DNA from: Apostichopus japonicus | Taxonomy: Eukaryota; Echinodermata; Holothuroidea; Aspidochirotida; Stichopodidae | Direction: 5' to 3' | Assembly (NCBI RefSeq): GCF_037975245.1 | Contig: NC_092578.1 | Coordinates: 14,676,321-14,740,320 of the forward strand | Length of the DNA stretch: 64,000 nucleotides | Shown: positions 1,521-60,237 of the stretch, one piece after another | Layout: each line of letters begins with the position of its first letter | Numbering within the stretch: position 1 is the stretch's first letter | Notes under the pieces: generated by a model | Told to the model about the DNA's origin: nothing | Database searches by the model: none | The model's input: only the letters and a program-made list of their open reading frames with translations | Translations under genes and position numbers: made by a program

Positions 1521-5260
<3,740 letters not shown>

Positions 5261-6086: not shown

Positions 6087-6462
6087 AAGCATTAATGATC
6101 TCGATTGGGTTAGCATCATGATTGATCTCTGGAATAAGGCAAAGTATGTCACCAAAACAGAACTGGCATTGTTCGATCAGGGAGTTGTTATAACAACGCC
6201 TACAGTGTTGTTATAACAACGCCTACAGTGGATTGACGACCTTCCAGGCTTACTGGTTTCGAACCTCTGGACATACAATCAGCGTCCATGGCCTAGTTGG
6301 TTAGGGTGACCGCGTATAAAGCGGAAAGCCCGGGTTCGAATCCCTGTGGCGGCTGGGAGTTGTTATAACAACTCCCTGGTTCGATACAGGTGGCAATATC
6401 CTAATGACGACCTTCCTTAGTGGTTTCGAACCTCTGGACATACAATCAGTGTCTATAGCATC
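6087..6462 (+). mobile_element. tRNA-derived SINE copy 1, interrupted
   Basis: Starts aagcattaatgatctcgatt and continues as in the copy at 6463 up to 6177. It is then interrupted by a 201-bp inverted-repeat element (6178-6378) and resumes with gttcgatacagg, atgacgacc and ggtttcgaacctctgg. It is followed directly by copy 2. Confidence 0.75.
6178..6378. mobile_element. 201-bp element with perfect 20-bp inverted repeats carrying SINE sequence
   Basis: Left end cagggagttgttataacaac (6178-6197); the right end 6359-6378 is its exact reverse complement. gttcgat (7 bp) lies directly on both sides (6171-6177 and 6379-6385), as after a transposition. The interior (6198-6358) is part of the same SINE family, with box A and box B. 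The palindrome gttgttataacaac occurs a third time internally at 6207-6220. Confidence 0.7.
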
Positions 6463-6704
6463 AAAGCATCAATGATTTCGATTGGGTTAGCATCATGGTT
6501 GATCTCTGGAGTAAGGCAAAATATGTCACCAAAACAGAACTAGCATTGATGGATACAGCTGACAAACGCCTACAGTGGATTGACGACCTTCCTTACTGGT
6601 TTCGAACCTCTGGACATACAATCAGCGTCCATGGCCTAGTGGTTAGGGTGTCCGCGTATAAAGCGGAAAGCCCGGGTTCGAATCCCTGTGGCGGCTGGGA
6701 GTTT
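6463..6704 (+). mobile_element. tRNA-derived SINE copy 2, intact
   Basis: Composite SINE with box A-like tggcctagtggttagggt (6632-6649) and box B gggttcgaatccc (6674-6686), ending in a short T run. Further upstream, ggtttcgaacctctgg resembles a second box B, hinting at a dimeric head. Not a true tRNA gene: no closed acceptor stem. Confidence 0.75.
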
Positions 6705-10581: not shown

Positions 10582-11146
10582 GTTAGCAGTGATTTGTAAA
10601 GGTTAACAAACTCTCAAAACCAATGTTGTGCCTACACATGATAGCAGTGATTTGTAAAGGTACCAAAACTCTCAAAACCAATGTTGTGCCTACATTAGAA
10701 CAGTGATTTGTAAAGGTATACAAACTCTCAAAACTAATGTTGTGCCTACACATGATAGCAGTGATTTGAAAAGGTACAAAAACTCTCGAAACCAAAATTG
10801 TGCCTACATGATAGCAGTGATTTGTAAAGGAATACAAACTCTCAAAACTAATGTTGTGCCTACATGATAGCAGTGATTTGTAAAGGTATCAAAACTCTCA
10901 AAACCAACGTTGAGGCTACATAGCAATGATTTGTAAAGCTATACAAACTACTAAAACCAATGTTGTGCCTACATGAGAACAGTGATTTGTAAAAGTATAC
11001 AAACTCTCAAAACCAATGTTGTGCATACATGAGAACAGTGATTTGTAAAAGTATACAAACTCTCAAAACCAATGTTGTGCATACATGATAGCAGTGATTT
11101 GTTAAGGTATATATACAAACTCTCAAAACCAATGTTGTGCCTACAG
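10582..11146. repeat. Minisatellite, about 55-57-bp unit
   Basis: About ten copies of a unit containing agcagtgatttgtaaaggta, then acaaactctcaaaaccaatg and ttgtgcctacatgata, with point and small-indel differences. Short reading frames in it are by-products of the repeat. Confidence 0.95.
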
Positions 11147-11721: not shown

Positions 11722-14490
<2,769 letters not shown>

Positions 14491-14492: not shown

Positions 14493-14568
<76 letters not shown>

Positions 14569-21100: not shown

Positions 21101-24100
21101 CCGCCCAGTGTTCGATTTTTCCGGTATCGCATCGCAAAATGCGATCCAAAACGACAAACTTGCGAGACGTTTCCAAATCAGCATCGCACTTTCTGCCGAT
21201 TTGTGCGATACAAATTCTTAGTCAGATTTGGGAGCAAACACTCAAACCTTAACTTACGAACTGTCGATCACAATGTAAAAGTCATAATTTATTGAGTTTA
21301 TACTCAATGTACAACTTATCGACTTGACCGTATAGCGAAAAAAACCCTGAAAAAATAATATCCTACCATAGTTAAGTGTAAAGCAAATAGCCTAACCACC
21401 TCGGCGGTTACAGATCTCACGTAACTAAAAGGTTCCCTGGCAACGTGCCAAAAAATGTTAACAAACAGGTGTTATACAGGGGATGAGCTCACAGTTGTTG
21501 GGAAGGTACCTGGGCAAATTCGCAGCACATGTACCGTGGTACAGTAGTTGGGTAAAGGGTTAAACACTGCAGTTGTAAAAATGTACGCATAGTGCACGCT
21601 ATTCATTGTTAGGCAGTCTAGAAACGGGGCTTTGCTGAACGTTGTTTGTTTCATAATATTGAAGTTTTGTAAGTTGCACTTTTTAAAGATTGAAAGACAG
21701 ATTAAATCTCTTTTCATTTTATAACATAATACAGCTACTTTAACTTGTCATTTTAAAATTTTCATCAGTTTCGTGACAATTTAAATAAAAAAAGTTGTCA
21801 GTATTTTGCATCCTCAACTGCGAATTTTTTCATCGCCAGACATCGCAAAAAAAGACAACAATTTTCGGGGGCTTTCGCCCCAAGGATCCCCACGAGGGGT
21901 TCTACCCCGTGACCCCACCATAACCCTAAGATGGGCCCCTGGACACCACGCCTTTATGCTCGCACGTTACGCGTGCTAGGCAGGCGAACACCGGCGGGAA
22001 ATCGGCAGTGTGTTCGCGGGAAATTGAACAAGGTTTTCCAACACTGCTGAACTGTGCAGTTACTGTATGCATCATGTTCAAGGTTTTCACGGAGGCCTTT
22101 GAGGAAATGAATGGTTAGTACAGTGTATATATGCTGCACTAATGCTGTGTGTAGGCCAAGGTTCACGAAGGTCAATGGTTATATTCGCGCGCCATAGACG
22201 TGTTTTTAGATGTTACGGAGAGTCAGGTTTCCATGGATATTAATCGAAAATGAATCTGAGTTTAACTGACGCTAAAGAAATGGATCGTCTTGGGCAGATT
22301 AACAAATCATTGCATGTATAAATAAGTACAGGTAGCTCTGCTGTTCAAAAGAAAAGTTCAATATCGGTTTGCTGTTATCGGCAATTAGGCAAAATTTTAC
22401 CGATACCGATATGCTGCCGATATTGCAAATATCGGCCGATACCGATATTGAAAACGATTATCGTAGCCATGGGCGTCAACAGGTGGGGGACGGGGGGGAC
22501 ATGTCCCCCCCACTTTCAAAAGTGGAGGGGATATCATATCATTTGTCCCCCCCCCCACTTTTCAGAGCAGTTATTAAAAAAATCACATGCATATGCGCGA
22601 TTTTCTATCACAATTGCTGAGCTGATTCAAGTAGAATCTAACTTAAGAATCATTATCAATAAATTGCACTGGAAATTAGAACAGTGCTTGGCCCTTTATC
22701 CCCCTTCCTCCGATATTCACCCTCCCCGCTTCGTCCGAGACCTCTGATAAAAGTTTGTGCGATGTTTGAACGATGTTTTAGAGTGTTTTGTGGAAGCACC
22801 CCTTCTCGCCAGAAATGGAATTCCCCTTGCCCTACACTGTGAATCAGAGAAAACGACGCATTTCAACTTGAAAACAAGTCGAAGACCCCACCAGGAAGGT
22901 AATATCATATATTTTAGGCCCTACAGACAGTATTCTGCCTGTATGCAGGGTATTATATGATACCAAACTACCGAAAATATTTCGTTTGAGATGGACGCTG
23001 TGTAATTCGTTTCCCTTGGTGTCAGAACGGCATCTTTCTACCAGTACTTTCTGTCGGAATTTAGTTTTGTGAGACAAAATTTCTCCTCACAGATCTGGTT
23101 CTGATTTAACTAAAAACGACTCAGGAAGGCCGTCTCCTGCGATCTAGGGGGTCTTATGTACCCAAAATTTTCTGGTACGCTACGCGCCAACCAATGGTGG
23201 CGCTCCGCTTAGATAGTATAGTGTCCCCCCCACTTTCTGAAACCTGCTGACGCCCATGATCGTAGCAACACTAGTATAAATAATAATAATAATAAACAAA
23301 CATTTTCTAGTTAATACATTGATCCCCAACATTTGGTCAGTTTTGTGGTAATTTCAAAACTGCTATTCAATATTGGGGAACTGCTATGCAACAAAAATAT
23401 TGTACAGCAATTGTCAAAATTTGTTGCTATGCAATTTTTTGGCCATAAGTCGAACACTGCTTCCGCCCCTCCACATTTTTCACTGGGGGGGCTGGCGCCC
23501 CCCAGCCCCCCCCGGTTCCTACGCCCTTGTGCTAGGATATATTTTGCAAAAAGTAATCTGAACAACTGTTTAAGCAGTGGTTAAATACTTGTGTGTTCAA
23601 CAAGTATATCTTTTTTCCAAAAGCTTTGAGCTAATCTAGTGCATCAAGTGTTTCTATATGTGAAATTGAAAGATATTTTGACCATAAGATCAGGATTCCG
23701 TTGAAACCTTGTTACTATTAGGTAGGCACCCTTTGCACGAGTGATTGTTTGGCCCTTTTGGGTGTACCAAGGTGGCATGAGCGACCTTCAAATATAGCTC
23801 TGCAAAGAGTATTGTTGTCAGCAGGTGCGATGTGGCCTCTATGTCATGAATAATACCACCATACATCCTACTACCTACCAATCCTACTCTTTTACCTAGA
23901 TGGAAACTGGAAGCTTTAAGTTCTATTTGTTTTGCTGCATTATAATCAGTTTGTAACTTAAATGTTATGTGATTACCTTTTATATTTGTGGTTTTAAACT
24001 TGAAGCAGGCATTTACTCTGTTATTAAAGCACCGATCAATTATATATATCAGAGAAAATTACACACATTTCGATATAGGCTACGTAGGCCTATGTTGTCT

Positions 24101-27865: not shown

Positions 27866-30454
27866 ATAAAAAAAAATAACGCTTTCAATTCCAGCCTGTC
27901 CGTTAATTTTAAATTGTAAAACAAAATACAGTGATCAAAATTTTAGGATTTTCTATCAGTTACACATGATTCCTTTTGTCTACTCTCTACCAATACACGG
28001 ACTACCGTGATGTCATCAGGACCCTAGTCCAATAAATTCAATTGTAGACGACTTTCAGGACCATGGATCATGTAAATTTGTTTTGATGATTATCTTCATT
28101 AATCTTTCTATTTTTTTATTTTATTTTATCGGAAAACGTTTTATTGATGATCTTTCGGAATGTTTAGATACCACAGAACTTGTTACCTTGTTGTCACTGG
28201 TTTTATTTTTTAGACGAGGTAAAGAAAACTGCTAGATTACGTTCAGAATGGTGACGTACAATCGAACTCTGTGCATTTCTTCTGCGACCCTTCATGCAGT
28301 GTATTTTTTTTACGAAAAGACTAAATCATTCAATCTGAAATTGTGCAATTTAAGGGTTTTTTTAAAATTGCTTATGATCAATGCAAACTCTTAAGGTAGC
28401 AGACCTACTCCCTTGGGTGCATGGTTTATAGGGCAGAAGACAGGGAGGGGGTGAGGGAGGGTGAAGGTGAATTAAATAGTATTAGTTCTATTATAAGTTG
28501 GCTCCTATGCATTATTTCAGGCATTATCCTTTTTACAGGGTACGATTTTAGTCACTAACTTGCCAGTGAATAAAGTTGGAAATTCTCATTGTAGCATTTC
28601 AGATAAAAAGCTGAACATGAATATCTTCCTTGTTTTTGTGACAGTAGTGTTTTTTTCCTTGCTATGCATCTGTAGCATTAACCCAATTTACATGATAATG
28701 CTGACATGGTATTTTATTATATTCTGATTATGCATTCATGTAACGGTAGTGTTTTATTTCCTTTGCTATGCACCTGTAGCATTTACCCAATTTACATAAA
28801 AATGCTGACATGGTATTTTATCGTATTCTGATTTTGCATGTTCTCAATGTTCTCAAACTCAGTTTGTGACATTGTGTACTTCTTTGATATCAATCGGAAT
28901 CCCTTAAAGTCAATGTGTAGCATTAATGTTCGCCTTCGAGGGGAATCATGATACACACCCTGACGATGATCACACAGTGACCAGTCTAGATGCAAGGGGA
29001 CTGGGGTTGAGAGCGGATTAGTTGGTTCGTTGTTTGGTTTTTCGTGCCCAGGTTCTCTCCTGGGTGACTTTTCTAACAAAGTATCCTTAAAAGTTAATGT
29101 TTAACAAGTAGACACAATAAATGGCTTACACAGACTGTTGTGTAGGTGTCTAATATACTGTAAAGACTACAGCTCAATAATGTAAAGACTAACAGACTAA
29201 CAATACAAATAAAAGAAACGTGGTACAAGATTTTGTTGTTCTTGTTTTGTTCCAAGTTTTCCTTTTTTCCTTCTCATTCTCGGCAATTTTTATAGACGTT
29301 TCTCTCAAGTTTGGGATCCCAGGAAAACCCAATTAAAAATTGCTAGACTTATTTTGACATGAATCTACGCTCATCTGAGCTTCAACAAATTAGGCAAAGG
29401 TATCCATTTGGAAGATATTAAGAATTGGTTACACAGTCTCCCCCTCCCCCCTCCCTGTCCCACCTCCCTTCCGTAACAACCCCCCTAAATAGTAATTAAA
29501 ACATGAAAATAGTTCTGCTCAGGGGACAGTGAGGTACTAAACGGGAGACGTGTGATGTCCCGCCCTGCTCTAACCAGATAGCATCTACCCGCTCCAACCA
29601 GGGAGCGATCCCTAGACCCTAAGTCCGAAAGCTCTTTAAGTGTTCGTCTTCTAGATATTAGAGAAGCACTATGGGAAAACACTTTTAAAGTGCCAGGCAA
29701 AATGCACCTGAATAAAAGTTATGGGGCAAGAGGGATCCACGTCTCCCCCCCCCCCTCCCTCACGCTTCATTGGTGAACCAACTTTTAACGTGTAATTGAT
29801 CATTTGTTGTTTCAAATTTGATTAATTTTGAAAAAATGTCAACGTCATATAACTTGGTAAGCGCAGCAACTGCTTGTATACCTGGATAGTAAGAGAGGTT
29901 AATACACACTACATTTCGTACAGAGGTTTAATACGGTGCGCGATTAAAGAAAGAAACTTAACAACGGTAACCTTCATTCTTCCGTATACATTAAGCGTGT
30001 TTTGTTTTACCGGCGCCGACTAGTGGAAGGGTCAACTGAGGGGGCCGACATCATTTGAGGGGGGGGGGACAAATACGCCCTCCCCATTTGCGTTGCCACT
30101 GAATATGACATGTTTTGTAACCCATGATTCTTTATTTCATTGCTGCTTTCGCCAATTAGATCTGCGGTAATGACTGAGGCTGGTTACGTGACAAATGCTG
30201 CCCATGTCGTGTCATACATAGGTTATATATAGCAAATATTGACTGAAACAAGTGTATGTTCTATACCATTGCCAATGTAAATTTACAGAGAGAACTACTT
30301 AAACACCCGCAATTTACTTTAATGTCTATGGCGTAAACCGCAACCGTTACGACAAACAGTTTTTACAAGGTGACTTTAAAACATACAGATCTAGTTACCG
30401 GTACTTGGTTGGAAGAAATGTACATGATTGTAGTGATCTTGTACTCGTACGTGC
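27866..30454. other. Intergenic DNA between the two ACBP genes
   Basis: Holds the ACBP gene 1 3' UTR region, an imperfect direct duplication around 28640-28700 and 28745-28830 (tgctatgca(t/c)ctgtagcat, then acccaatttacat), and the dispersed repeat at 28938. No further gene recognised. Confidence 0.5.
28938..29074 (+). repeat. Dispersed about 137-bp repeat, copy 1
   Basis: Shares aatgatcacacag-type, gatgcaaggggactggggtt, gagagcgga and cgtgcccaggttct(c/t)tcctg with the copy at 43392. A diverged fragment with gagcctgggcacgaaaac lies in reverse near 47803. Confidence 0.8.
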
Positions 30455-30462
30455 CCCCCTCC

Positions 30463-31254
30463 CATGGGCGTCAACAGGTGGGGGACGGGGGGACATGTCC
30501 CCCCCACTTTCAAAAGTGGAGGGGATATCATATCATTTGTCCCCCCCCCCCCACTTTTCAGAGCAGTTATTAAAAAAATCACATGCATATGCGCGATTTT
30601 CTATCACAATTGCTGAGCTGATTCAAGTAGAATCTAACTTAAGAATCATTATCAATAAATTGCACTGGAAATTAGAACAGTGCTTGGCCCTTTATCCCCC
30701 TTCCTCCGATATTCACCCTCCCCGCTTCGTCCGAGACCTCTGATAAAAGTTTGTGCGATGTTTGAACGATGTTTTAGAGTGTTTTGTGGAAGCACCCCTT
30801 CTCGCCAGAAATGGAATTCCCCTTGCCCTACACTGTGAATCAGAGAAAACGACGCATTTCAACTTGAAAACAAGTCGAAGACCCCACCAGGAAGGTAATA
30901 TCATATATTTTAGGCCCTACAGACAGTATTCTGCCTGTATGCAGGGTATTATATGATACCAAACTACCGAAAATATTTCGTTTGAGATGGACGCTGTGTA
31001 ATTCGTTTCCCTTGGTGTCAGAACGGCATCTTTCTACCAGTACTTTCTGTCGGAATTTAGTTTTGTGAGACAAAATTTCTCCTCACAGATCTGGTTCTGA
31101 TGTAACTAAAAACGACTCAGGAAGGCCGTCTCCTGCGATCTAGGGGGTCTTATGTACCCAAAATTTTCTGGTACGCTACGCGCCAACCAATGGTGGCGCT
31201 CCGCTTAGATAGTATAGTGTCCCCCCCACTTTCTGAAACCTGCTGACGCCCATG
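30463..31254. mobile_element. hAT-like element C, copy 2
   Basis: 792 bp, almost base-for-base the copy at 22468 (they differ in C-run length and a few substitutions). 8-bp target duplication ccccctcc at 30455-30462 and 31255-31262. Lies between the two ACBP genes. The high identity implies recent movement. Confidence 0.93.
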
Positions 31255-35100: not shown

Positions 35101-38100
35101 AAATCAATATATGCCTGTCCTCACCTGAAATCACATAAGAAAAGTAAGTAGAAATCCGTATATAGGACTTCATAGAGTTGAGAATATCAAGTTAATAGAA
35201 ACTTGTACCAACCGAAATTAATGGAAAAGCAAATGCAGCAAATCAAATTATCAAATGGATTTAATCAATATCAATAACCACACATGTGATCAATATCATT
35301 TTATACATAAAAAAAAAACCAAGTGCATAATTTTAGTTTAATATATGCAAGCATGAGCGTCCTCATTTTTACCATTTCCTCTTTGTTCTCTAGTTACCGT
35401 ACTATCATAATAAGAACTATGAAAATGGTCATGTAAACAAAAGTTGAACATATTTTGACACCGAGAAGGAACCACTTTACGGTCCTCATCCATTCCGGGT
35501 TTTCTTGGTCTTTTGCGGCGAAGCGAGAACTAATTGCAACGTAGGATGATATGACCACGCCCTCCACTAACAGCCATACGACATAGCCACCTGTAGAAGG
35601 AAACAACAGCCAACACTCTTTTAGTGATTGGTAGTGCAAAAAAGAATGCAACAGTTACGTCAGTCACCTGCTTACGAAAATATAAAACGTGATGTGCATG
35701 AACTAGAAATTTCAGCCATCTTAAAGATCATTATTATTGCCCCCCCCCCCCCACACTCCCGCAACATGCTTAGAAGTCCCATAGTGATCCCACGTGTTGA
35801 CACATGAACAAGAATGTTACTACCATCCTCAGAACATTTTTTCATCAATTTGCCTTGGTGCACACTCCCCCGTGTCAGGACCTTCAGTGGAAATACTTTT
35901 TGGTTTCGATGATAATCGTAACCTATATGCATTCATGCTGGCGTGTGTGTGTGTATGTACGTGTGTTATGATCCCATATTTTGTGTCCCATAGTACATTA
36001 CTGAGTACAAGAAGTCTTGTTGTTTATAGTGGATGTCAAAGGTTATTTGGTGTCACCAGTGGTCAAATTGTGAAAACCTTGTAAACACGATATTTCAAGA
36101 AGAGAAGCTTGGACATTTTTTTATGTAGGAGAACCATATTAAGGACAATAAGCCTATTGGTTTTTGTGGAGGTCAAATGTCATTTGGGGTCTTCAGAGGT
36201 CAAATTGTGAAAACATTGTAAACAAACTATTGCAAGCAGGGAACCTTGGACAGATCTCATATTTGGATTGCAGATGGACCATATCAAATTTAAGGAGCCT
36301 GTCATTGCCTTAGATCGAGGTCAAAGGTCATCTGAAGTCAACAAACGCCAAAAATTTATTTCACAAGGGAAGCTTAAACAGATCGCATATTTGGTATATA
36401 ATTATACCACATTGAGTACAAGTAGCCTATAGTGTTGTGACCGAAGGTCAATGGTCGTTTGAGTTCACCAGGGATCAACTTGTGAAAACCATGTTTAACA
36501 CAATATTTCAACAATGTCAGATGTCATATTTAGTATGTTGATGTATCACATTTAGTACAAGAAGCCTGTTGTTGAGGTCAGTAGTCATTTCAGGACAGCC
36601 TGTGTCATACATTGTGAATTTATTGTTTGTCACATCACACTGCTTTTCAATGTTATTACTAAGATCAATTATGTTGTACACCCTCATTAAACATTACGTC
36701 TAATCCATGACGAAAAATGTTCATCATCGAAACCACAATGCATCTTGGCATTCTGGTTAATACTCCAAGCAATTTTGAGCTCGCTGAATTTAAGCTCAAT
36801 ATTGATGACCATTAACTTGATAGTTTCCCAACTGCTAATTTCACTTCCCATGAGGTTCACTTGAGTCACTATAATAAATGTTATGGTTAATGTTCTATAT
36901 GAACTATTTATAGAGATTTTCGTCTTCTACTCAAATTATTTGTACCTTTGCCCCGAATCTTATATGCAGACTAACCTATAGTATAGGAACTTCTGTTATG
37001 AAATTTGCAGCAAGTATAGCTGAAGTGTTCATATTTACTTTGATATGTAACATAGGCACCCAGACACAGGATTGGGATTACGCGGGGCTGGGTAGAGGGG
37101 GGGGGGGTGGTGGCAGAAGACAGACACATTTCTGTTAGGTTATGACCTTTACATGATGTATTGGCCTTATTTGTAAAAGGCATTGCTGTGAAAATTATTA
37201 AGGGAATCATCCCACCCTCGTACCCCACCCTCGTATTCCGCCTCCCCCCCCCCCCCCCCCCTTCGAGTTGTCCGACGCTCTGTAGCAGATTCTTCGAGAA
37301 GATCAAGCATCCATTGTGATATTAATGCTGCAAACAAAGAACATATTTTCCCTACTGTTCAATTGTATGATGAGAGAGATTAAGTTGCAGCCAACAAACA
37401 AATGACATACCAATGATGGCTTGCCCGGCAGATGGGAGTTTGTTAAATAAGAAACTAAGGAACACAAAGAGAAATGCCATACCAATGACGGGTTGCTCGG
37501 TATATTGGAACTTGTTAAATAAGAAACTAAGGAACACGAAGGAATATGACATACCAATGACGGGTTGCCCGGTAGATGGGAGTTTGTTAAATAAGAAACT
37601 AAGGAACACGAAGAAATATGACATACCAATGACGGGTTGCCCGGTAGATGGGAGCTTGTTAAAAAGGAAGCTAAGGAACACGAAGAGAGTCAAGATACAG
37701 CTCAAACTGAATGCCGCTGCTTTTGGATCTGGTGTCCGAGGGAGGCAAAGTGCCAACGTGGTCATCGCTGACATCACCAGACACGGAAGTATGAGAGCCA
37801 TGAAATGTAACGACCTTTGACCTCTTTTGAGCTTTAACACGTAATGGATGTAGGACTGTTCCTCGCCCTCGCAGCTTGCGCAGTCGTAGCTATTAGCGCC
37901 AACTTCAACTAGCTCGATATCCAGACTCCATAAGCCGTGTTTTAATGCATACTTCTTGTAAGCATTTTGATCAATGAGGTCTGTAATTTTCTCAAATTGT
38001 TGCTGTATTAAAGACGTAGAAAGTATGGTAGGCATTACAATGTAATGCATAACTGAGGGATCAATGACGCAGTATTGTAGGAAATCCAGAAGGTTTAGTT

Positions 38101-40078
38101 ACTATGATGTATAAGTTAGGTTCTGAAGAAGAGTAAAGTGATAACTTAATATTATACTTAATGATGAACGCTATACATTTCTAAGAAGAAGAAAAAACAC
38201 TTATACGTTATAACTAATATAAAGTATGGGACTGGACAAGAGTAAAGCGATAATTTCATTTTATTCTTATTCTCAAAAGAGATTTCTCATGCCAGACAGG
38301 AAGCAAGGGCGTAGGAACCGGGGGGCTGGGGGGCGCCAGCCCCCAGTGAAAAATATGGAGGGGCGGAAGTATCATTCCGCCCCCCCCCCCCGCTTCGCAA
38401 GTCAGAAAACCCCTTTTTCATTTCCAAATGAGAAAAAAAAATCTCATTTGGAGCACCAAATTGCATCTAAGGCCAGTTGAAAATGCAAAATTATATACAA
38501 AATGGAGTGGGTGGGTTGAAGTGTGCTATATTGCACCAAATTGCATCTGAGGCCACCTGGAAATGCAAAAGAATTCCAAAGGGGAGGGGGACACCCCCTC
38601 CCCTTAGACCCCTCCCCCAGGCCGGCCATCAGTCTTCAGCCCCCCCCCCCCCACACACACACAAAAGTACCTTCCTACGCCACTGACTGTACGTGTGAGC
38701 CTCCGCTCACGTATTGGTCACATAGGCTATTCAAGAAAACATGTCGGTTTTGGCGCGTAACTACAAACGTTTAAATTGTATACGCCTTAATGTCTAACAA
38801 ACTGCGTTAGTCTTTGTGTGGCGATACGCGAATCCCCACATAAGGACTTGTGAATATTGTCGGTATTTGGCGATCAATATGTGGCAATGTTAGGATCGCA
38901 TGATAAGTAAAATGTTCTTGTTCATTACGTGGAGATGCTATTAGTGCCACATAGGGACTTAAATTGTTCTTGGTCATTATGTGGATATAACTTTGTATTC
39001 ATATGAAGACCTAGGTTTACATAATTTTTCTGCATATTTGGCGGTTTTGGCGTCCCATGGTGATCGGCTCGTAGTAAATATACTTACTTCTCCAGTTTGG
39101 TAAAGCCATGTAGTAAACGTGAGATAGCAGATCTGTTCATCAAACGGATAATATCGTACGGATATTCTGCAAAAGGACTCAAAATTAGCAAGCGTATACC
39201 AGTACACCTGTCCTGTGTATTCCAAGGTGATTGATGTAGTCTCCGGTTGAAAGCTTCTCGGACCTGGTGCAATGCTGAATGGAAAGTTTGATATCAACAG
39301 GGGAAATGAATGTGAAATAAAGCATTGACTAAATCCGTTCGGCTATACTTTTCACCAATTAAGAACTGGATTTATTTTTTAAAGTAAATTTTAAATATTT
39401 GTTGGGTTCATAGGGTTTCCGTTGCGGAAAACTTCGATGCCAAATATGCCGCCATATTACCCCATAGGCTCAGTGATCAAATTTCCCAATGTTAACTATA
39501 TATGGTCTATCCCCTTCCCTCTCTTGTGATTCTAACAATGTCATTTACATGTTCTACTGTGTACTTCGCAAAGAAGGCAGTCATGTAGATGAAACAGGTT
39601 CTCGGTTCCGCTTACGTTTCAATGATCACAAAAAAATGTATTCGCGTGATAATTTTGTAAGATTTCCCGTTTCCGAACATTTCAATCTTCCGATAGACAT
39701 TCTCTCAAAAACCTTAATTGCCTCGAACTTCAAATCATCTTCTGAACGTAAACGTAAAGAAATCGATTGTATCTTTCGTATTAAGTCTCACATCACTGGC
39801 CTCAATAAAGACCTGAGACCCCTAAACCACCAGAAGTTACAAACATATGTAATCCGTTCTTCCTATTCTTTGCTCCTTGATCCGCTTCCTGTATAGTCAT
39901 GGTTTATTTGGTTCTATTTTCATCAATGCAACACATATATCTAGCATCATACTTTCATTGTGTTACATTTTGTACTTTTTCATTCCACTGCCAAGTATTG
40001 CTGACGAAGGTCCAATGGGGACCGAAAATTCCAATTATATTTTCTAAAACAATACTCCTTATTTGTCAAGTATGTATG

Positions 40079-40109
<31 letters not shown>

Positions 40110-43100
40110 ATACATGCTAAAATATCGTGCGGTCGAATTCACAGACAGAGATGTGCTATCACAATTCTGTTAAAATACAAACTGAAACATCAGGCAAATG
40201 AAAGCCACAATACGTCATATTTACGTCATATCACTCACCTCTCGTTAAGCACTAACTCTGGTTGCCAAAGAAGGCCTTCTCCACTTCCCGATGATAGAGG
40301 GAGTTTTGTCTTATTGATACCCTCGTAGTTTTCTGGTTGCCATGTCAACTGGGGGTCGCACCAAGTCTGTCAGTGAAACCAAGCTAAAATCGACAAGTCT
40401 GGCTTCATAATGATGTTCAAATATAGGCCTATGCTCTGAACGATTGATTAAATATAGGCTAATTTAAGGCTGGAAAGTATTTCTTATTTGGAACAATGAA
40501 ATAATGCAAAGTTCTTAATTGGTTATGAATACTACAATCTTAATGTAGTAATTAATAATAATTTGACATAGCTTCATTTTAATATTATAATGAGAACGTT
40601 ATTTATGACATTTCAATCAATAAGGAAGAATATCCAACGTCACTTACCAAAGCTACCATTCCTCGCAGTTGGAGATGTTGTTCGATTTCATTCTTCAAGA
40701 AAATTAAAACATAAATATTACGCAATTATTGCTCAATCACCCGCTGATCGTCAACCACCTCCCCAGCCCCAATCACAGTGCATTGTAAACGTCCACCTCT
40801 CGCACTTGATATCTTCAGCATGCGGTTCATCAATTTTTGTCAGAATTTGCCAACCATTCCTCCCCCCCCCCCCTCCCCTCAACATGTAACATGAGGGCAA
40901 TAAATTGAGTTGCAGATCTCATCTCCTCCATGACGGAAGTGAATGTAAGGTTACTTCTGAATGCATCTTCTTGTCATCTCAAAATGTAATATTTCCCATT
41001 TTCTCAACATATCTTTTGCTTTAATGCCTTTTCCATACTGACAAGCAGGTGATGGCTTAAGCAAAAGTTTTGAGGTATTTGACCTCTGACCGTTGACCTA
41101 TACGTCACCAATCACGCAGATAGAGTTTTCATGGTCAGGCACCTACCCGCCAAGTTTGAACTTGATCGGACTTAATTAACGCGGTCTAGAAGGAGTTCGC
41201 GACACACTTCTTTGCTCACGCACACACACGCGCGCACACACACATCCTCACTTTTCTGTGGGGGAAGTGGGGTGGGGTGGGGGAGTACATTACGTCATCT
41301 CCCCTAAACGTTACATTTAGGGATATGATATAATACAAAACAGGTAAATAATATAGAATCACACGCTGTAGGTGACGCCTGAAGCTGTGATTACAATTTA
41401 CAGAAATTATACTCGCGGTCATACATGGTCAGTCACTTATTTTTTAATTGATTTGTTTGTGCTATATACTATTCCCATGAAACAGTGGTCTTTACTTAAG
41501 TAACCATATACAAACTTGTTAGGAGGTGTTTGGGTGGTGGATGACATTTCGGACGTTCAAAATCACTTCCGAAGTAATAATAGATACGTAATATTAGAAA
41601 TAATATTGGACACCTTACGTGGCCCTCAGAACGTTCTTTCAGATGTGCGCGACGACCTGGTCTGACCAGGGGAGGGGGGGGGGGGGGTTGAGAGTGATGA
41701 GCGAGGGCGAGGGGGAAATGAAGCGTACCTAAAACAAGGGGACCTTGGTATACAATCGTACAATGGGCCCGACCTTTCTCTCGAGCGAGTGAGACAAGGG
41801 GAACATCAATTTTACCATACTATTCAACTATGCATGCATGTAAAATGCAATATTAAAAACTCAGATAAATACTGACCAGAACAGAAATAGTTGGCGTAAA
41901 ACGATAGCCAACGATGACTGGTTTCGATGTGTCATTTACAGGTCGTAAAGAAGGCTCGTAACCTGCCATCAGTGTTTTATGTAGCTCCCGAAGTACATCT
42001 CGACTTGCACACTCAGCTATTTGAAGACGAGTAAATACAACAAGATCATAGACGGGAATAAAACAAATTAAAGAGGCGGGGTGGCCCTGTGGAACCAATA
42101 TTGCCTCCGAATTACCCCCCTCCCCCCCCTCCTCACAGGGAACCACCATCGGTGTGAACGTCATTTTCAATTGTTATCACTGAGACATGTCAATCTCTAA
42201 TTGATCCACAGTCTGTGGCGTAACCAGCGTGGGTTTTTTTTTTTGGGGGGGGGGTGGGGGTCATATGACATCGGTTGGCAAAAACAGTATAAAATGGATT
42301 GAAAGGCTCAGTTAAAACCATTTCGCGGTTGACGTTAATCCTTAATTGACTGGAATTATCAAAGTAATACAAGCCAATTACGTCTTAAGTTAAATATTAT
42401 CCTATTTGCTTGTTTGCTTTCTGTCATTGTTACCAACCCCCTCCCCGATCCCACCCATCCTTTGGCAACACACGCTACCCAACAACTAACGAGATAACGT
42501 GTGGATCACAACGTATTTAGTAGTGGTGTCAGAGCTATAAATAAACTGCAAAAAGAACAACATGAAAACTACGTTTTATTAACGGCTTCAGGAATGAAAT
42601 TAATACGCAATATAGTAGTGAAGGTTAAATACGTTAATCAATATATCTGTATTGTCCTAAATCTAGATATATACATGTTATTTACATTATGAAATACTAG
42701 GTAAAGTGAAAATGGTACTTACCTTGATTTGGCAATATATGTAAAAGCACAAAACAATTAAAGAGGAAATTATAAGGCATGTTGAAGACTTTTAATCTGG
42801 TAAAAGTGTTATACTCGGTACGTACTGAGCGTAAAGCCAACACCCCGATATAGACATCAATTTTATATGTTCTTTCTAATTCAGACGTTAAACGTCAAAA
42901 CAAAGAGGGTTGAAGATAAAAGCTTTTAATTACAGTTTTCAAGTACATATAAATTCTTTCAGTATACACTTAACGTCAGGAAGCTATGTTTATTGATTAT
43001 TATGTATCACTTTCGTGGTAAGGAATCGTGTAAGAGCCGTTACAAATTCAGTTTACTGATCGGTTATTTCCATGCATCCAAGGTGATTCTTTGGTGGTCT

Positions 43101-45558: not shown

Positions 45559-46312
45559 TGTATCTGTTGGATATACCCCGCCACTATAAATCAATGTCAG
45601 AGGTAAGGATCGCTACCCAGACTGAGCGTAGGGGTAGGATAGAGGTATAAATTCCAAATAAATTGAAATTAAATAAAAGGTTGTTTATAAACTGTAGAAA
45701 TGTTTATTCGCAGTTTCATATGTCGAAAATAAAATGAAAGTAACGTATCTCTTGTGTTGTTTTTTTTTTCTTTTTTTTCTTTTGTTTCAAATAGCCTCAT
45801 TGTCATCGATAGAGTTTCGACAGGACCTTGATTTAAGTGGTGAAGATTGGGTTGAATCGAATGAAGTGGGTTGGAGTAGGATGAAAGTGAAAACAATAAG
45901 ACAATATGATTGTTTTTCATGGGTCAGTCGAAGTTGAAGCCGACTTCCTTTTACGGGTCCTGAAACACAACAAAGTAGAAAGTGAGAGAATGGACGCCAC
46001 GTAGTCTATATAGCTGCTTAAAATTTAAATTACAGCGACTTTATACTTATGGTGGGGGGGGGGTATTTCTGACACTAATATCCAAGAACAATGGTTATTA
46101 GCATCACCCGTAGTCAATATTTACTAAAGGTGATGCATATGATGTAGCTCAACGAATTGAGGGGTCTGATGAAGAAGGAGCTAGGGAGATAGGTAGGAGG
46201 AAAGACATGTGACATTTCAGAATAATAAGTACAAGAAAAAAATACCGCACAGGAGGACGACTAAATCAACGATACACTTCTAATTAATTGTTTCCTTAAT
46301 AGGGCATTTGTT

Positions 46313-47062
46313 GTGTGCAGCAATTGGTCCTTATTCCATACAGAGGTCTCCAAATTAAAAGAGATTTTATACCATAATGGTTATCCCAGCAGGATTTTGG
46401 AAGAGTGTGTATACAAATTCCTCAATAAGAAACTTAGTTCTGAAGTGGATAATCAGGATAAGGATGATGACAGTAAGTACATGATTACCATTCCATTCAT
46501 AGGTCACCCTTCACTAAATTTCAAGAGATCCTTAACTAAACATTTTAGAGGCGTTAACAAGAAGTGTATTATAGTTTTCAAAACGTTTAAAGTCAGTAAT
46601 TACTTTTCCTTGAAAGATAAGACCCCCATGGCCCTTAAAGCCAATGTCATCTATTCATTTGAAGGTTCCTGTGATAAGAACCAAACTTACATCGGTAAGA
46701 CTAAAAGACATCTGGCTACAAGGGTCAAGGAGCACTTATCTGACAAATCTGCAATCTATGAGCATATCACTCACTGTATAGACTGCCGATCAGCTAACAT
46801 CACCAACTTTAGTGTCATAGACAGCGGCTATACAGACTTTGAAATTAAAATTAAGGAGGCACTGTACATCAAGAAACTTAAACCCGTTTTAAACAATCAA
46901 CTATTTCAACATGGATCGTCATTTATTCTCAACTTATTTTAGAACCTCCTATATCTTTGAACATACATAGTCATCATTAATACTACAACTTTCGCATGCA
47001 CTATACATAAGAGATTATTTTATTATCTATTTCCTGACGAGGAAGATGTGAAATCTTCGAAA
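46313..47062 (+). pseudogene. Penelope-like element 3' end, GIY-YIG domain plus hammerhead-like motif
   Basis: The frame 46313-46942 (209 residues) encodes the C-terminus of a Penelope-like polyprotein: IPFIGHPSLNFKRSLTKHFR (connecting region), ANVIYSFEGSCDKNQTYIGK with TKRHLATRVKEHL (GIY-YIG core with intact YIG), and a helix ending EIKIKEALYIKKLKPVLNNQ. The upstream reverse transcriptase is missing. About 92 bp after the stop, 47034-47062 reads ctgacga, a GAAGAT/ATCTTC hairpin, then gaaa, the same arrangement as at 40001. Confidence 0.82.
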
Positions 47063-54300: not shown

Positions 54301-57300
54301 GCTCGCCTGCAGGCTTAAATACAGAAGCATTACACCTCAGAGAAGCAGATGGGGTGGGGAAAGGAGTGAATGGATTGAATTGGAGATATGCAGATGTGAA
54401 AATTGTGTAGTATCGCTATCGTGTGACCAAATGTAAAGTTAGACCTCTTATTATAAGTTTATAAGATAATTTAATTGTTCGTGCAAGCCATTAGTCAGTG
54501 ATTCAGTCGTAGACAGTTTTTAATTTGTAGATGGAATAAGATATTACCTCTCTATATATATATTTTTTACATATTTTTTTTTTTCATTGCTTTCTTCATA
54601 AAGATGGGCATCTGCGACGGACTGTCCCAATGCACCGACGGTTCTGACGAATTTCATTGCGAAGTACCCTTAACAACAGCTGAAAGTTCATCCTGTCCAG
54701 TCCTCTGTAAGATTGGATCATATATGCATTGTTTACCGCAGAACAAAAAATGTGATAAAACAGTGAACTGTTGGGATGGCTCCGATGAAGAAGATTGTCC
54801 GACGACTGCAAATCTACCTACCACGACCACCACAACACCAACGACAACTACATTTTGTGATGATGGGTTTTTCATCTGTGTAATTGGAACATATTCATAT
54901 TGTTTATCGAACAGTAAATTATGTGATCAGGAACAGAATTGCGACAACGGTGACGACGAAAAAGGATGTACACCACCACCACAGTCGATCACAACCACCA
55001 CTCTACCAACCACCACTCTCCCAACCACCACTCTTCCATCCACTACGACTATACCACCAACAACATTCGTGTGCAGTGATGGTTTTTTTATTTGTGTAGT
55101 TGGTACATACACCTATTGTTTACCGAACAGTAAATTATGTGATCAGGAACAGAATTGCGACAACGGTGACGACGAAAAAGGATGTACACCACCTCCACAG
55201 TCGATCACAACCACCACTCTTCCAACCACCACTCTTCCAACCACCACTCTTCCAACCACTACTCTCCCAACCACTACTCTCCCAACCACTACTACGACTA
55301 TACCATCAACAACATCCGTGTGCAGTGATGGGTTTTTTATTTGTGTAATTGGTACATACACATATTGTTTACCGAACAGTAAATTATGTGATCAGGAACA
55401 GAATTGCGACAACGGTGACGACGAAAAAGGATGTACACCACCACCACAGTCGATCACAACCACCATTCTACCAACCACCACTCTTCCAACCACTACTCTG
55501 CCAACCACTACTACGACTATACCACCAACAACATCCGTGTGCAGTGATGGGTTTTTTATTTGTGTAATTGGTACATACACATATTGTTTACCGAACAGTA
55601 AATTATGTGATCAGGAACAGAATTGCGACAACGGTGACGACGAAAAAGGATGTACACCACCACCACAGTCGATCACAACCACCACTCTACCAACCACCAC
55701 TCTTCCAACCACTACTCTTCCAACCACTACTCTACCAACCACTACTACGACTATACCACCAACAACATCCGTGTGCAGTGATGGGTTTTTTATTTGTGTA
55801 ATTGGTACATACACCTATTGCTTACCGAACAGTAAATTATGTGATCAGGTACAGAATTGCGACAACGGTGACGACGAAAAAGGATGTACACCACCACCAC
55901 AGTCGATCACAACCACCACTCTACCAACCACCACTCTTCCAACCACTACTCTTCCAACCACTACTCTTCCAACCACTACTCTACCAACCACTACTCTACC
56001 AACCACTACTACGACTATACCACCAACAACATCCTTGTGCAGTGATGGGTTTTTTATTTGTGTAATTGGTACATACACATATTGTTTACCGAACAGTAAA
56101 TTATGTGATCAGGAACAGAATTGCGACAACGGTGACGACGAAAAAGGATGTACACCACCACCACAGTCGATCACAACCACCACTCTACCAACCACCACTC
56201 TTCCAACCACTACTCTTCCAACCACTACTCTACCAACCACTACTACGACTATACCACCAACAACATCCGTGTGCAGTGATGGGTTTTTTATTTGTGTAAT
56301 TGGTACATACACATATTGTTTACCGAACAGTAAATTATGTGATCAGGAACAGAATTGCGACAACGGTGACGACGAAAAAGGATGTACACCACCACCACAG
56401 TCGATACCACCCACAACGACCACTTTGCCAACCACCACTCTTCCAACCACTACTCTTCCAACCACCACTCTTCCATCCACTACGACTACACCACCAACAA
56501 CATCCGTGTGCAGTGATGGGTTTTTTATTTGTGTAATTGGAACATACACATATTGTTTACCGAACAGTAAACTATGTGATCAGGAACAGAATTGCGACAA
56601 CGGTGACGACGAAAAAGGATGTACACCACCACCACAGTCGATCACAACCACCACTCTACCAACCACTACTCTACCAACCACCACTCTTCCAACCACTACT
56701 CTTCCAACCACCACTCTTCCAACCACTACTACGACTTTATCACCAACAACATCTGTGTGTGATGATGGTTTTTTTATTTGTGTAATTGGAACATACACAT
56801 ATTGTTTACCGAACAGTAAATTATGTGATCAGGAACAGAATTGCGACAACGGTGACGACGAAAAAGGATGTACACCACCACCACAGTCGATTACCACCAC
56901 CACTCTACCAACCACCACTCTACCAACCACCACTCTGCCAACCACTACTCTTCCAACCACTACTCTTCCAACCACTACTACGACTATACCACCAACAACA
57001 TCCGTGTGTGATGATGGGTTTTTTATTTGTGTGATTGGAACATACACCTATTGTTTACCGAACAGTAAATTATGTGATCAGGAACAGAATTGCGACAACG
57101 GTGACGATGAGAGGGATTGTCCAACCACACTAACATCTATTCCACCCACAACAACCGTTTTGCCAACCACAACATTACACCCAACAACAACTGCAGTGTG
57201 TGGTGATGGGTTTTTCATTTGTCTAATTGGTACATACACATATTGTTTACCGAACAAAAAATTATGTGACCAGGAACAGGATTGCGACAACGGTGACGAC

Positions 57301-60237
57301 GAAAAAGATTGTCCAACCACACCAGCAACCAACCCTCCTGTGACAACCACGTTGCCACCCACAACTGTACTGCCTACAACTACATCAGTTTGTACAGATG
57401 GCTTTTTCATGTGTGTGATTAATACATTTAAATACTGCTTACCGAATAGTAAAAAATGTGACCTCGTACAGAATTGCGACAATGGTGAAGATGAAAAAGG
57501 ATGTGCAACAACATCTTTTCCTACCACGATGTTGACATCACCTTGCGGAGAAGATATCGTCTGTCGAGTAGAGAGCTTCCTTTACTGTTTACCACAAACT
57601 AAACGATGCAACGGGAAAATGGATTGTCCTGACAGATCCGACGAAGAGAACTGTGTAACAACGGCTCCTTCGAGATCCACCACGGTCACTACCGGATCCA
57701 TCTGCGACTTTTTCACATGCCAAGGGAATGGTCAATGTGTGGACATGGTAGATATATGTAATGGTGTTGAAGACTGTCCATCAGGAGAAGATGAGGATGG
57801 CTGTCCCACACCTGTGCCATGCGTCTTCGGACAATTTGAATGTAATGACGGCACGTGCATCCCTGTCTCACTTGCATGTGACGGAACCGCACACTGCCCT
57901 TTCTCGGAAGATGAGCTGAATTGCCCGCAAGAGAATTGTCCGAGTAAATTCCGTTGTAAGAGCAACGATGGTTGTCTTCAAGAGATTGCATGGTGCGATG
58001 GAGTCGATCAATGCGAAGATGGCTCTGATGAAGAGAACTGTGGTTCATGCGGTGCTGGCCAATTTGCTTGTTCCGCTTTTGGAATGTGTATAGAACGTTC
58101 GAAAGTTTGTGATGGTCGACCGGATTGTCCAGGACCCACTGACGAGGAGGACTGTACGGCAATTGAGCCGTGCGTTGGATTCTTCGATTGCCAGAATGGG
58201 TATTGCATTGATATATCGAGTGTCTGTGATGACGTCATGGATTGTCACAATGGTTTTGACGAGAATGATTGCGAGGGGAAGAGAGGAGAGTCTGTGGAGG
58301 ATGAGAAAGATACATGTCAACACTATTGGGTAAATTCATGTGTTTCGATGTTGATCTATGTTAATTCAAAAGGAATTTACTCCATTTTAATTATTCTTCT
58401 CCCATTGATATGCATGTGTTTTATTGTATATCTATGTTTGTGTCATTGCTTTAAATTTTTTCGACTAGTCAACGATAGACCCAAACGGAAGGTAAGGAAG
58501 CATTTTTACTAGAAAGGTCGGAAAAACACATTATGCTTGGATGTTAAGGGTTTCATTTTATCTCGTAGGTTTTTTATTTATTTTTATTTCTAAGAGTACC
58601 CGATAAAATTCTGATTTGCGAAATGTTATCATTCTGGAAATCGTATGTGACATTTTTTTAAGGATTAGACTGAAAAGACACCAGATCAAAAAACATCAAT
58701 GACATTTTTAGTTTAATATCGGCCTGTTCCATTTGAATGACGTCTATGAACTAATGGGTTTTCAGTTTTATCTTCGCTATCAGACGAACGTGAAAAGTAA
58801 GAAAAGATGCAAAACTTTTCAGTGATGACCTTTGACATTTGACCTTTTGACCTTACTTTGCATAATTTGTTTTGTTTTCAGTGTAACAATCGATGTCTAG
58901 GTTTAACCCAGATTTGCGAAGGTCGTCTGGATTGTGGTGTAGACTTATCAACTTCATGTGGCTTCCGCCAAAACGGTAAACCTATTTTCTCTTACTTTTA
59001 TACTTTTTTTCAGATGCAATTCGTCCGATTTTAGTCATAACAAAGAAATATAAAGCTATTCATTTGATCTTTTATCACTATAGGAACTTCAAAAACGGAT
59101 TTCCTTCTGCATCTGATTGATCTTGTTTAGGTTATTAACAAACATTCATTAATTCCTTTACCTTTCTTTAACTCTCATTCAATTGGTTATTGTAGTTGTT
59201 CTGTGCAAACACGTTACCATTTCTTTCCTTCCTTTTCTAATATCTTCTTGTCTTTTATGATTACAGAGGAAACTGACAAAGAAACACTGGACGAATTATT
59301 GCTTGAACTTTCAAACTCACTGGAATCTGTGAAGAGGCAGAAAAGTAAGGATGATATTATAAAAGGCAATTAGAATTAACCGGAAGTATAAACAGAATAA
59401 TGATCACCCATTTTTAAGCTTCCATCAAATAATTTGATCTCACGTACAAGTCATTTCTCTTTTCATTCTAATCTTAAAACTTCTGTGTTTTAAAATATCT
59501 CAATATCTAGAAATGCATCAAATCATAACGACGAAATTATTTCCATTACAAACATTTTGACGGTGAAATATGAGCAGATGTGACGTGTAATTTCTCGTGT
59601 TAATATAAATTCTTTCGTTTTGAAAATTTAATTCAATGACGCCTTAATAGTTAAATAAGATAAGTTAATTGAAGTCTTTACTTTACATCTACAAACTATA
59701 TTACAACAGAAGAGAAAATTAATTAGAATTGTGGTTTGCTTTGCAATTAATTTAAAATAGTTTGCAATTAGTGGCATTCCTAAACACATGGAGTTCTCTA
59801 CTAGCTCCCTGTGTAAAATATCTACGGATAAAAAAAATCGTTTCACATTCAATTTGCTGAATTTACGACGCCGTTCTTCTTTTCTTGTCTCTCTACAAAT
59901 GGGTGGATATTGTTTGATTCCTTAATAATTTTATGTGCAATATTTGGTCTATAAAGGTAACACTCAGAAGATGACGAAAAAGTTGGCAAAGCAAGTGGCC
60001 GATGAAGTTAGCATTCGACTTCAAACCCAAAGAGACGATGACGACCAGAAAGAGAAAGGGAACAATATTGAAAAGAAGGGTGACGAAGTTAGTGACGTAA
60101 GAGGGGAGACTCCCGGCCACCTGTCTGACGTAATCGCCAAGAAAATAGAGATGACGCAACCACGGGGGGATAAAGAGACACTAAGAAGACAACTGAATCT
60201 TAAAAACTTGTTGGAGAAACGTTTTGACGGAAAATGA
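48350..60237 (+). CDS. Secreted multi-LDLa protein with Thr/Pro mucin-like linkers
   Basis: Ten exons: 48350-48457, 49482-49548, 50235-50413, 51606-51746, 52524-52704, 53905-54044, 54604-58329, 58882-58975, 59267-59344, 59957-60237. The 4995 nt give 1664 residues plus stop, with phases consistent throughout. The start ATG opens a signal peptide (MRILVYFLFYVLLSECHG). About 25 LDL-receptor class A modules follow (six Cys each, acidic C-terminal SDE-type calcium loop), several split across introns. Exons 3-6 and the end of exon 7 carry varied modules. The middle of exon 7 carries near-identical modules (CSDGFFICVIGTYTYCLPNS...) separated by PPPQSITTTTLPTTT-type linkers that should be O-glycosylated. 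The last about 120 residues are charged and helix-prone with no LDLa. RIRR after the first module resembles a furin site. It is probably secreted or matrix-bound; ligand unknown. ATG 54604 is an internal exon start, since the preceding half-module (exon 6) is completed there. Confidence 0.9.
50490..51260. repeat. Degenerate GATGGT-type minisatellite in intron 3
   Basis: Long G-rich plus-strand stretch built from irregular units such as gatggtgaggatggtcagaa. It occupies most of intron 3 of the LDLa gene. No open coding pattern of its own. Confidence 0.75.
54856..57330 (+). repeat. Coding tandem array of LDLa plus TTTLP units
   Basis: Inside the large exon, units begin (first Cys codon) at about 54856, 55072, 55321, 55540, 55774, 56038, 56272, 56509, 56758, 57007 and about 57200. 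Spacing between the well-matched units is 249, 219, 234, 264, 234, 237, 249 and 249 bp. The Cys-rich part is almost identical at nucleotide level. Length varies mainly by whole 15-bp steps (five codons, Thr-Thr-Thr-Leu-Pro) in the linker, so this is a minisatellite inside a larger repeat. The pattern indicates recent unequal exchange or gene conversion. Confidence 0.95.
58330..58512 (+). other. Intron 7 start with in-frame transmembrane-encoding extension
   Basis: The exon 7 frame stays open for 60 codons past the donor at 58330 (gtaaat). It encodes a hydrophobic run (IYSILIILLPLICMCFIVYL and on) followed by basic RPKRKVRK and a stop. A second, better-looking donor (AAG then gtaagg) sits at 58491/58492 in the same phase. 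The short donor is preferred for the main model because CQHYW at the exon end joins CNNRC of exon 8 to make a complete LDLa module. Retention would give a membrane-anchored form. Confidence 0.55.

Follow-up and report, generated by a model that had tools for sequence, protein, structure and literature searches.

The stretch of Apostichopus japonicus DNA analysed here (64 kb in total, referred to below as the window) contains on its minus strand a predicted Cys-loop (nicotinic-type) receptor gene of 376 amino acids at 35394..42780. The gene consists of seven exons, of which exons 1 to 4 were placed at 42780-42723, 42016-41877, 40692-40648 and 40366-40239, and exons 5 to 7 at 39274-39088, 38002-37627 (ending at the first donor) and 35590-35394, respectively. 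This gene model was built by hand from the sequence, and its joins and reading frame were then checked by script. All seven exons are open, and each intron of the gene has a gt donor and an ag acceptor. The start of exon 6 was set at 38002, after ...tacgtctttaatacag, from where the exon is open and in phase. A start at 38122 was ruled out, as it brings in two stops. The last exon is preceded by a phase 1 acceptor (ttccttctacag ahead of 35590; 35591..35602, minus strand), which is common to all of the exon 6 donors described below.

In the 376-residue protein, the ligand-binding domain of neurotransmitter-gated channels (PF02931) was recognised with an E-value of 3.7e-37 and a score of 128.3 bits at a cut-off of 26. 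The score of the protein for the membrane domain (PF02932) is 26.8 bits, slightly under the cut-off of 28.1. The Cys-loop is found in the joined protein as two cysteines 13 residues apart, and the hydropathy profile has four peaks (17-residue window, mean of at least 1.3) that correspond to four hydrophobic segments. A search of the PDB matched 156 distinct chains. The best chains among the matches listed are nAChR alpha (E 1.1e-30), and the lower-ranked ones among them include other nAChR subunits and 5-HT3A. Alignments were compared for two chains, both of nAChR alpha, and both of these span M1-M3 of the 376-residue form. The nAChR and 5-HT3A subunits in the PDB likewise have the order of ligand-binding domain, Cys-loop and M1-M3, with an M2-M3 linker of almost the same length as in the 376-residue form. 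The two aligned nAChR alpha chains differ from this receptor in their divergent sequence and have no extra units after M2. Altogether, the prediction is that of an intact-looking Cys-loop receptor gene. No further receptor genes were detected above chance by tblastn in the 64-kb window (best other match E 5.0), and none of the 60 pattern matches to exon 6 relatives in viral contigs was confirmed by tblastn.

The boundary between exon 6 and intron 6 is spanned by a tandem array with a period of 72 bp and 4.0 copies (37400..37688, minus strand). Tandem Repeats Finder reported 87% matches and a score of 450 for this array, which has a total length of 289 bp. One unit is made up of the 61 terminal nucleotides of the exon and the 11 initial nucleotides of the intron. 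Copy 1 (37616..37687) encodes the C-terminal half of M2 together with the M2-M3 linker and has a gtatgt donor after 37627, at the canonical exon end. The same gtatgt is found in copy 2 (37544..37615, donor after 37555) and in copy 4 (37400..37471, donor after 37411), while copy 3 (37472..37543) has gtatgg after 37483. In copies 1, 2 and 4 the exonic TTG is followed by gtatgtca, and the donors are identical across the 11 bases compared. Pairwise identities among the four copies equal 67 (copies 1 and 2), 61, 63, 64, 66 and 60 of 72 positions, and their resemblance, judged from these comparisons, is beyond chance. A second copy of the array unit elsewhere in the 64-kb window was not found above chance (best blastn match E 0.037, over 19 bases).

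All four donors are in phase 1 and share the single acceptor, which constitutes a putative alternative-donor arrangement. Joins from 37627, 37555, 37483 and 37411 to 35590 gave open frames of 376, 400, 424 and 448 amino acids, respectively. If left unspliced, the frame continues past the donor of copy 4 and meets a stop after a further 18 residues, counted from the split Gly codon. With a 17-residue window, the hydropathy of the extra units peaks at 1.44-2.1. The sequence-only reading of this locus had proposed that donor choice yields receptors of these four lengths, with an open frame through all copies, suitable donor phases and extra hydrophobic segments in the longer forms. The joins and the hydropathy peaks reproduced each of these points, and its assignment of the host gene to the Cys-loop receptors agrees with the PF02931 and nAChR alpha matches. 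It had also described a quadruplicated exon end with four gtatgt donors. The 72-bp unit and the four copies stand, but the unit is not all exon, with 11 bases being intronic in copy 1, and only three of the donors are gtatgt.

The identity of the working exon end was assigned by homology. Since the alignment of the 376-residue form with nAChR alpha extends over both M2 and M3, copy 1 represents the canonical end of the exon. The departures from nAChR alpha are small, with 1 extra residue before M2 and 2-residue gaps in the linker and in M3. The donors of copies 2-4, in turn, would insert 24, 48 or 72 residues into the M2-M3 linker. Copy 1 is therefore presumed to provide the main donor on the basis of protein homology, and not of splicing rules.

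The strength of the donors was assessed by U1 pairing energies computed with ViennaRNA. The energy equals -5.3 kcal/mol for copies 1, 2 and 4 and -4.7 kcal/mol for copy 3. Values between -6.9 and -12.0 kcal/mol were obtained for the five remaining donors, which makes the array donors the weakest of the gene. Among the 44 GT dinucleotides in 38010-37291, the four array donors occupy ranks 2, 3, 4 and 7. Given this weakness and the equality of three of the donors, a leaky choice between the array donors is plausible. The identity of the donors in copies 1, 2 and 4 also means that the donor sequence itself gives no reason for exclusive use of the first. Of two competing donors, the intron-proximal one is favoured by SRSF1 in human cells and the intron-distal one by hnRNP A1, according to the introduction of a published study (PMC5585400). 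By the SRSF1 rule as given there, cells with abundant SRSF1-like proteins could prefer copy 4. A search for RNA structure that might pick a donor gave nothing above the chance level across the array (z -0.02).

Each copy further contains a consensus-like acceptor site, tcgtgttccttag or, in copy 4, tttgtgttccttag (37455..37687, minus strand), with AG ends at 37671, 37599, 37527 and 37455. The acceptor-like ttccttag has 13 pyrimidines among the 15 bases upstream and lies 44 nt ahead of the donor of its own copy. For comparison, the assigned acceptor of exon 6 has 10 pyrimidines of 15. Mini-exons of 44 nt starting at these sites were ruled out, as their length is not a multiple of three and neighbours would be only 28 nt apart. 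The distance of 28 nt from the donor of one copy to the AG of the next is not a multiple of three either, and a new intron between copies would not be neutral for the protein. The boundary itself reads ATTG followed by GTATG and has no AGGT, the motif involved in intron gain by AGGT duplication. Any use of the cryptic acceptors within the array would shift the frame.

The retention of an open frame and of the donors was compared with a neutral expectation. In the simulation, which started from copy 2, 10, 13 or 15 random substitutions were introduced across copies 2-4 in 20000 runs each. Copies 2-4 remained stop-free in 74, 67 and 63% of the runs, respectively, and were both stop-free and in possession of all three GT dinucleotides in 55, 46 and 41%. 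The entire array can be read without a stop in three of six frames, two of them on the minus strand and one on the plus strand, as is to be expected because the repeat length is a multiple of three. Frame retention was thus rejected as evidence of use, and the retained frame and donors taken together say little on whether the downstream donors are used. Donor conservation was likewise rejected as evidence, since one of nine donor columns is variable compared to 16 of 72 in the unit, a difference that is not significant (p 0.36). The divergence of copies 3 and 4 with the frame kept had earlier been taken as compatible with some use; the frame is indeed kept, but the step from there to use does not follow, as the neutral simulation often keeps it as well.

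The changes unique to a single copy are distributed unevenly. Their synonymous and nonsynonymous counts are 3 and 0 in copy 1, 0 and 0 in copy 2, 0 and 6 in copy 3, and 1 and 3 in copy 4. In copies 3 and 4 combined, 9 of 10 unique changes are nonsynonymous, compared to approximately 75% under neutrality (binomial p 0.47). In their synonymous to nonsynonymous counts, copies 3 and 4 differ from copy 1 (Fisher p 0.014), with two of the three unique changes in copy 1 held by one codon. Copy 1 is recognisable by its codons AGC and CTT, which read AGT and TTA in the other copies. As all three unique changes in copy 1 are synonymous, the receptor gene has apparently been constrained in the past. The copy-wise pattern is as expected if constraint acted on copy 1 alone. 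It does not prove that copies 2-4 are unused, because every choice of donor leaves copy 1 within the coding sequence.

A second pattern concerns the hydrophobic decamer of the unit, the amino acids of which are unchanged in all four copies. All five variable columns inside the decamer are synonymous, compared to none of the 11 elsewhere (Fisher p 0.0002), and this contrast was matched in 0 of 1500 neutral simulations for any codon window, the window having been chosen post hoc. Three of these five columns separate copy 1, which is always coding, from the rest. If these three changes were made in copy 1, they are explained by its coding role; an origin in the common ancestor of copies 2-4 would instead strengthen the case for translation of the extra copies. 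When copies 2-4 are analyzed alone, the synonymous columns are 2 of 2 in the decamer and 0 of 11 outside (post hoc p 0.033). In these copies the decamer holds 2 of the 13 variable columns in 30 of the 72 positions (p 0.031). The decamer pattern could reflect translation of, and constraint on, the extra hydrophobic segments. However, gene conversion or unequal ages of the copies could also explain the scarcity of decamer changes in copies 2-4.

Tandem Repeats Finder detected arrays with units of at least 50 bp in three other places of the window, namely at 10584-11145 (56 bp unit), at 28637-28839 (104 bp unit) and at 54992-57513 (a unit of approximately 249 bp, within an LDLa-repeat reading frame). 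In a genome with such arrays, one that straddles an exon end is, in our judgement, not very surprising. The LDLa frame (54502-58509, plus strand) is open for 1336 residues and contains 12 stretches of the LDL-receptor class A type (PF00057), which are connected by linkers rich in Thr, (LPTTT)n; some adjacent units of its ~249 bp tandem array are 97% alike. Another open frame of 225 residues at 46265-46939 (plus strand) ends in a GIY-YIG domain (PF01541) and would fit a Penelope-like retroelement. Matching open-frame stretches at 22322-23086 and 30303-31082, which are 7996 bases apart at their coinciding ends, suggest that an element several hundred bases long is repeated here. Rfam matches to tRNA were found at 6282-6354 and 6625-6696 (plus strand; 39.2 and 44.4 bits), 343 bases apart. 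A similar open-frame stretch precedes or overlaps each of them, and they may represent tRNA-derived repeats instead of tRNA genes. Across the whole 64-kb window, Rfam gave nothing besides these two matches, both of which are distant from the receptor gene. Runs of the TA dinucleotide occur at 3715-3845 (65.5 copies), 11725-11957 (117 copies) and 14494-14556 (31.5 copies).

We consider it somewhat probable that the array is a duplicated intron start with leaky splicing, in which copy 1 serves as the working exon end. On this view, a nicotinic-type receptor gene would have acquired a short, minisatellite-like tandem duplication spanning the donor of its M2 exon. Copy 1 would then continue to end the exon and give an ordinary 376-residue subunit, and copies 2-4, placed at the start of the intron, would mostly be spliced out with it. 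The downstream donors are probably used at some rate, because copies 2 and 4 match the donor of copy 1 and all of the donors are weak. In the resulting longer products, M2 and M3 would be separated by one, two or three additional hydrophobic segments, and such subunits are unlikely to give working channels. Judged from the DNA alone, a leftover duplicated intron fits at least as well as longer channels do.

Alternatively, the choice of donor might be regulated, with the 400, 424 and 448 amino acid forms being made on purpose and the extra segments altering receptor assembly or giving a dominant-negative subunit. The correct frames and phases at all four donors would suit such regulation, as would the hydropathy of the extra units and a decamer that has no amino-acid change and retains its post hoc signal in copies 2-4 alone. 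A single-sequence structure model of the exon 6 read-through (197 aa) is also in line with it, in that a helix of 17-20 residues is predicted for each extra unit, although the low confidence of this model (pLDDT 58.7, pTM 0.28) makes it too poor for conclusions. In contrast, variable columns outside the decamer are nonsynonymous in 11 of 11 cases, the donor of copy 3 is weaker than the others, and every extra unit would land in the M2-M3 linker. This linker couples binding to gating in Cys-loop receptors. On balance, we regard regulated donor choice as unlikely.

The downstream donors might instead dominate, in which case most transcripts would lead to non-working receptors, with the gene being lost or a low output being tolerated. 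Such a splicing defect under way would be in line with the weakness of the array donors relative to the rest of the gene and with the membrane-domain score below its cut-off, as well as with the preference of SRSF1 for intron-proximal donors reported from human cells (PMC5585400). The seven open exons and intact splice dinucleotides speak against it, as do the exclusively synonymous changes unique to copy 1, which point to a gene under constraint, and we hold this explanation to be distinctly unlikely. It is more doubtful still that the array acts as a length dial, by which donor choice adds from zero to three hydrophobic helices (376 to 448 residues), with a fast-evolving copy number and a decamer under selection. 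Finally, tandem arrays are a common site of assembly error, but a wrong copy number, or an array absent from the animal, is very improbable here, as the array is short and any two of its copies show 5 to 12 differences over the 72 positions, which makes over-extension of a single copy in assembly unlikely.

Several published cases resemble the array in some respects. In the potato RdRp gene, a tandem duplication across an intron-exon boundary gave a new intron (PMC4974935). As in the receptor gene, a short duplication over a splice boundary multiplies a splice signal within one gene; however, in potato the acceptor side was duplicated and the new intron is reported, whereas here the donor side is present four times in the DNA sequence. 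Intron gain in Drosophila via tandem duplication of AG/GY proto-splice sites (PMC2891723) also involves a duplication in or at a coding exon, and according to that paper a length that is a multiple of three can permit differential splicing. The array differs from this case in that TTG is followed by GT without AGGT, and an intron between neighbouring copies, 28 nt in length, would break the frame.

In-frame alternative donors are known from KIT, where use of both GNNK+/- forms and tissue differences between them are reported (PMC12818652). KIT likewise is a membrane receptor with in-frame donors at one exon end, the products of which differ by four juxtamembrane residues, but it has two donors in contrast to the four-copy array. 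Neighbouring donors of one intron also compete in intron 4 of DOK7 (PMC5585400). The DOK7 donors are of unequal strength, 11 nt apart and frame-shifting, whereas three of the four array donors are equal in sequence and all are 72 nt apart and frame-keeping. A four-copy donor array does not appear in the available parts of these four papers (PMC4974935, PMC2891723, PMC12818652 and PMC5585400), and a limited search of the open-access literature found no report of a Cys-loop receptor in which the donor is repeated as an array.

If the long forms are made, an odd count of added membrane passes would be expected to invert M3. Should the downstream donors be in use, the locus would offer a natural test of spliceosomal choice between donors that are equal and spaced 72 nt apart, and of whether additional helices behind the pore helix are tolerated in a Cys-loop channel. 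Otherwise, duplication at a splice boundary would have produced a frame-compatible intron that mimics a coding exon, a warning for gene prediction.
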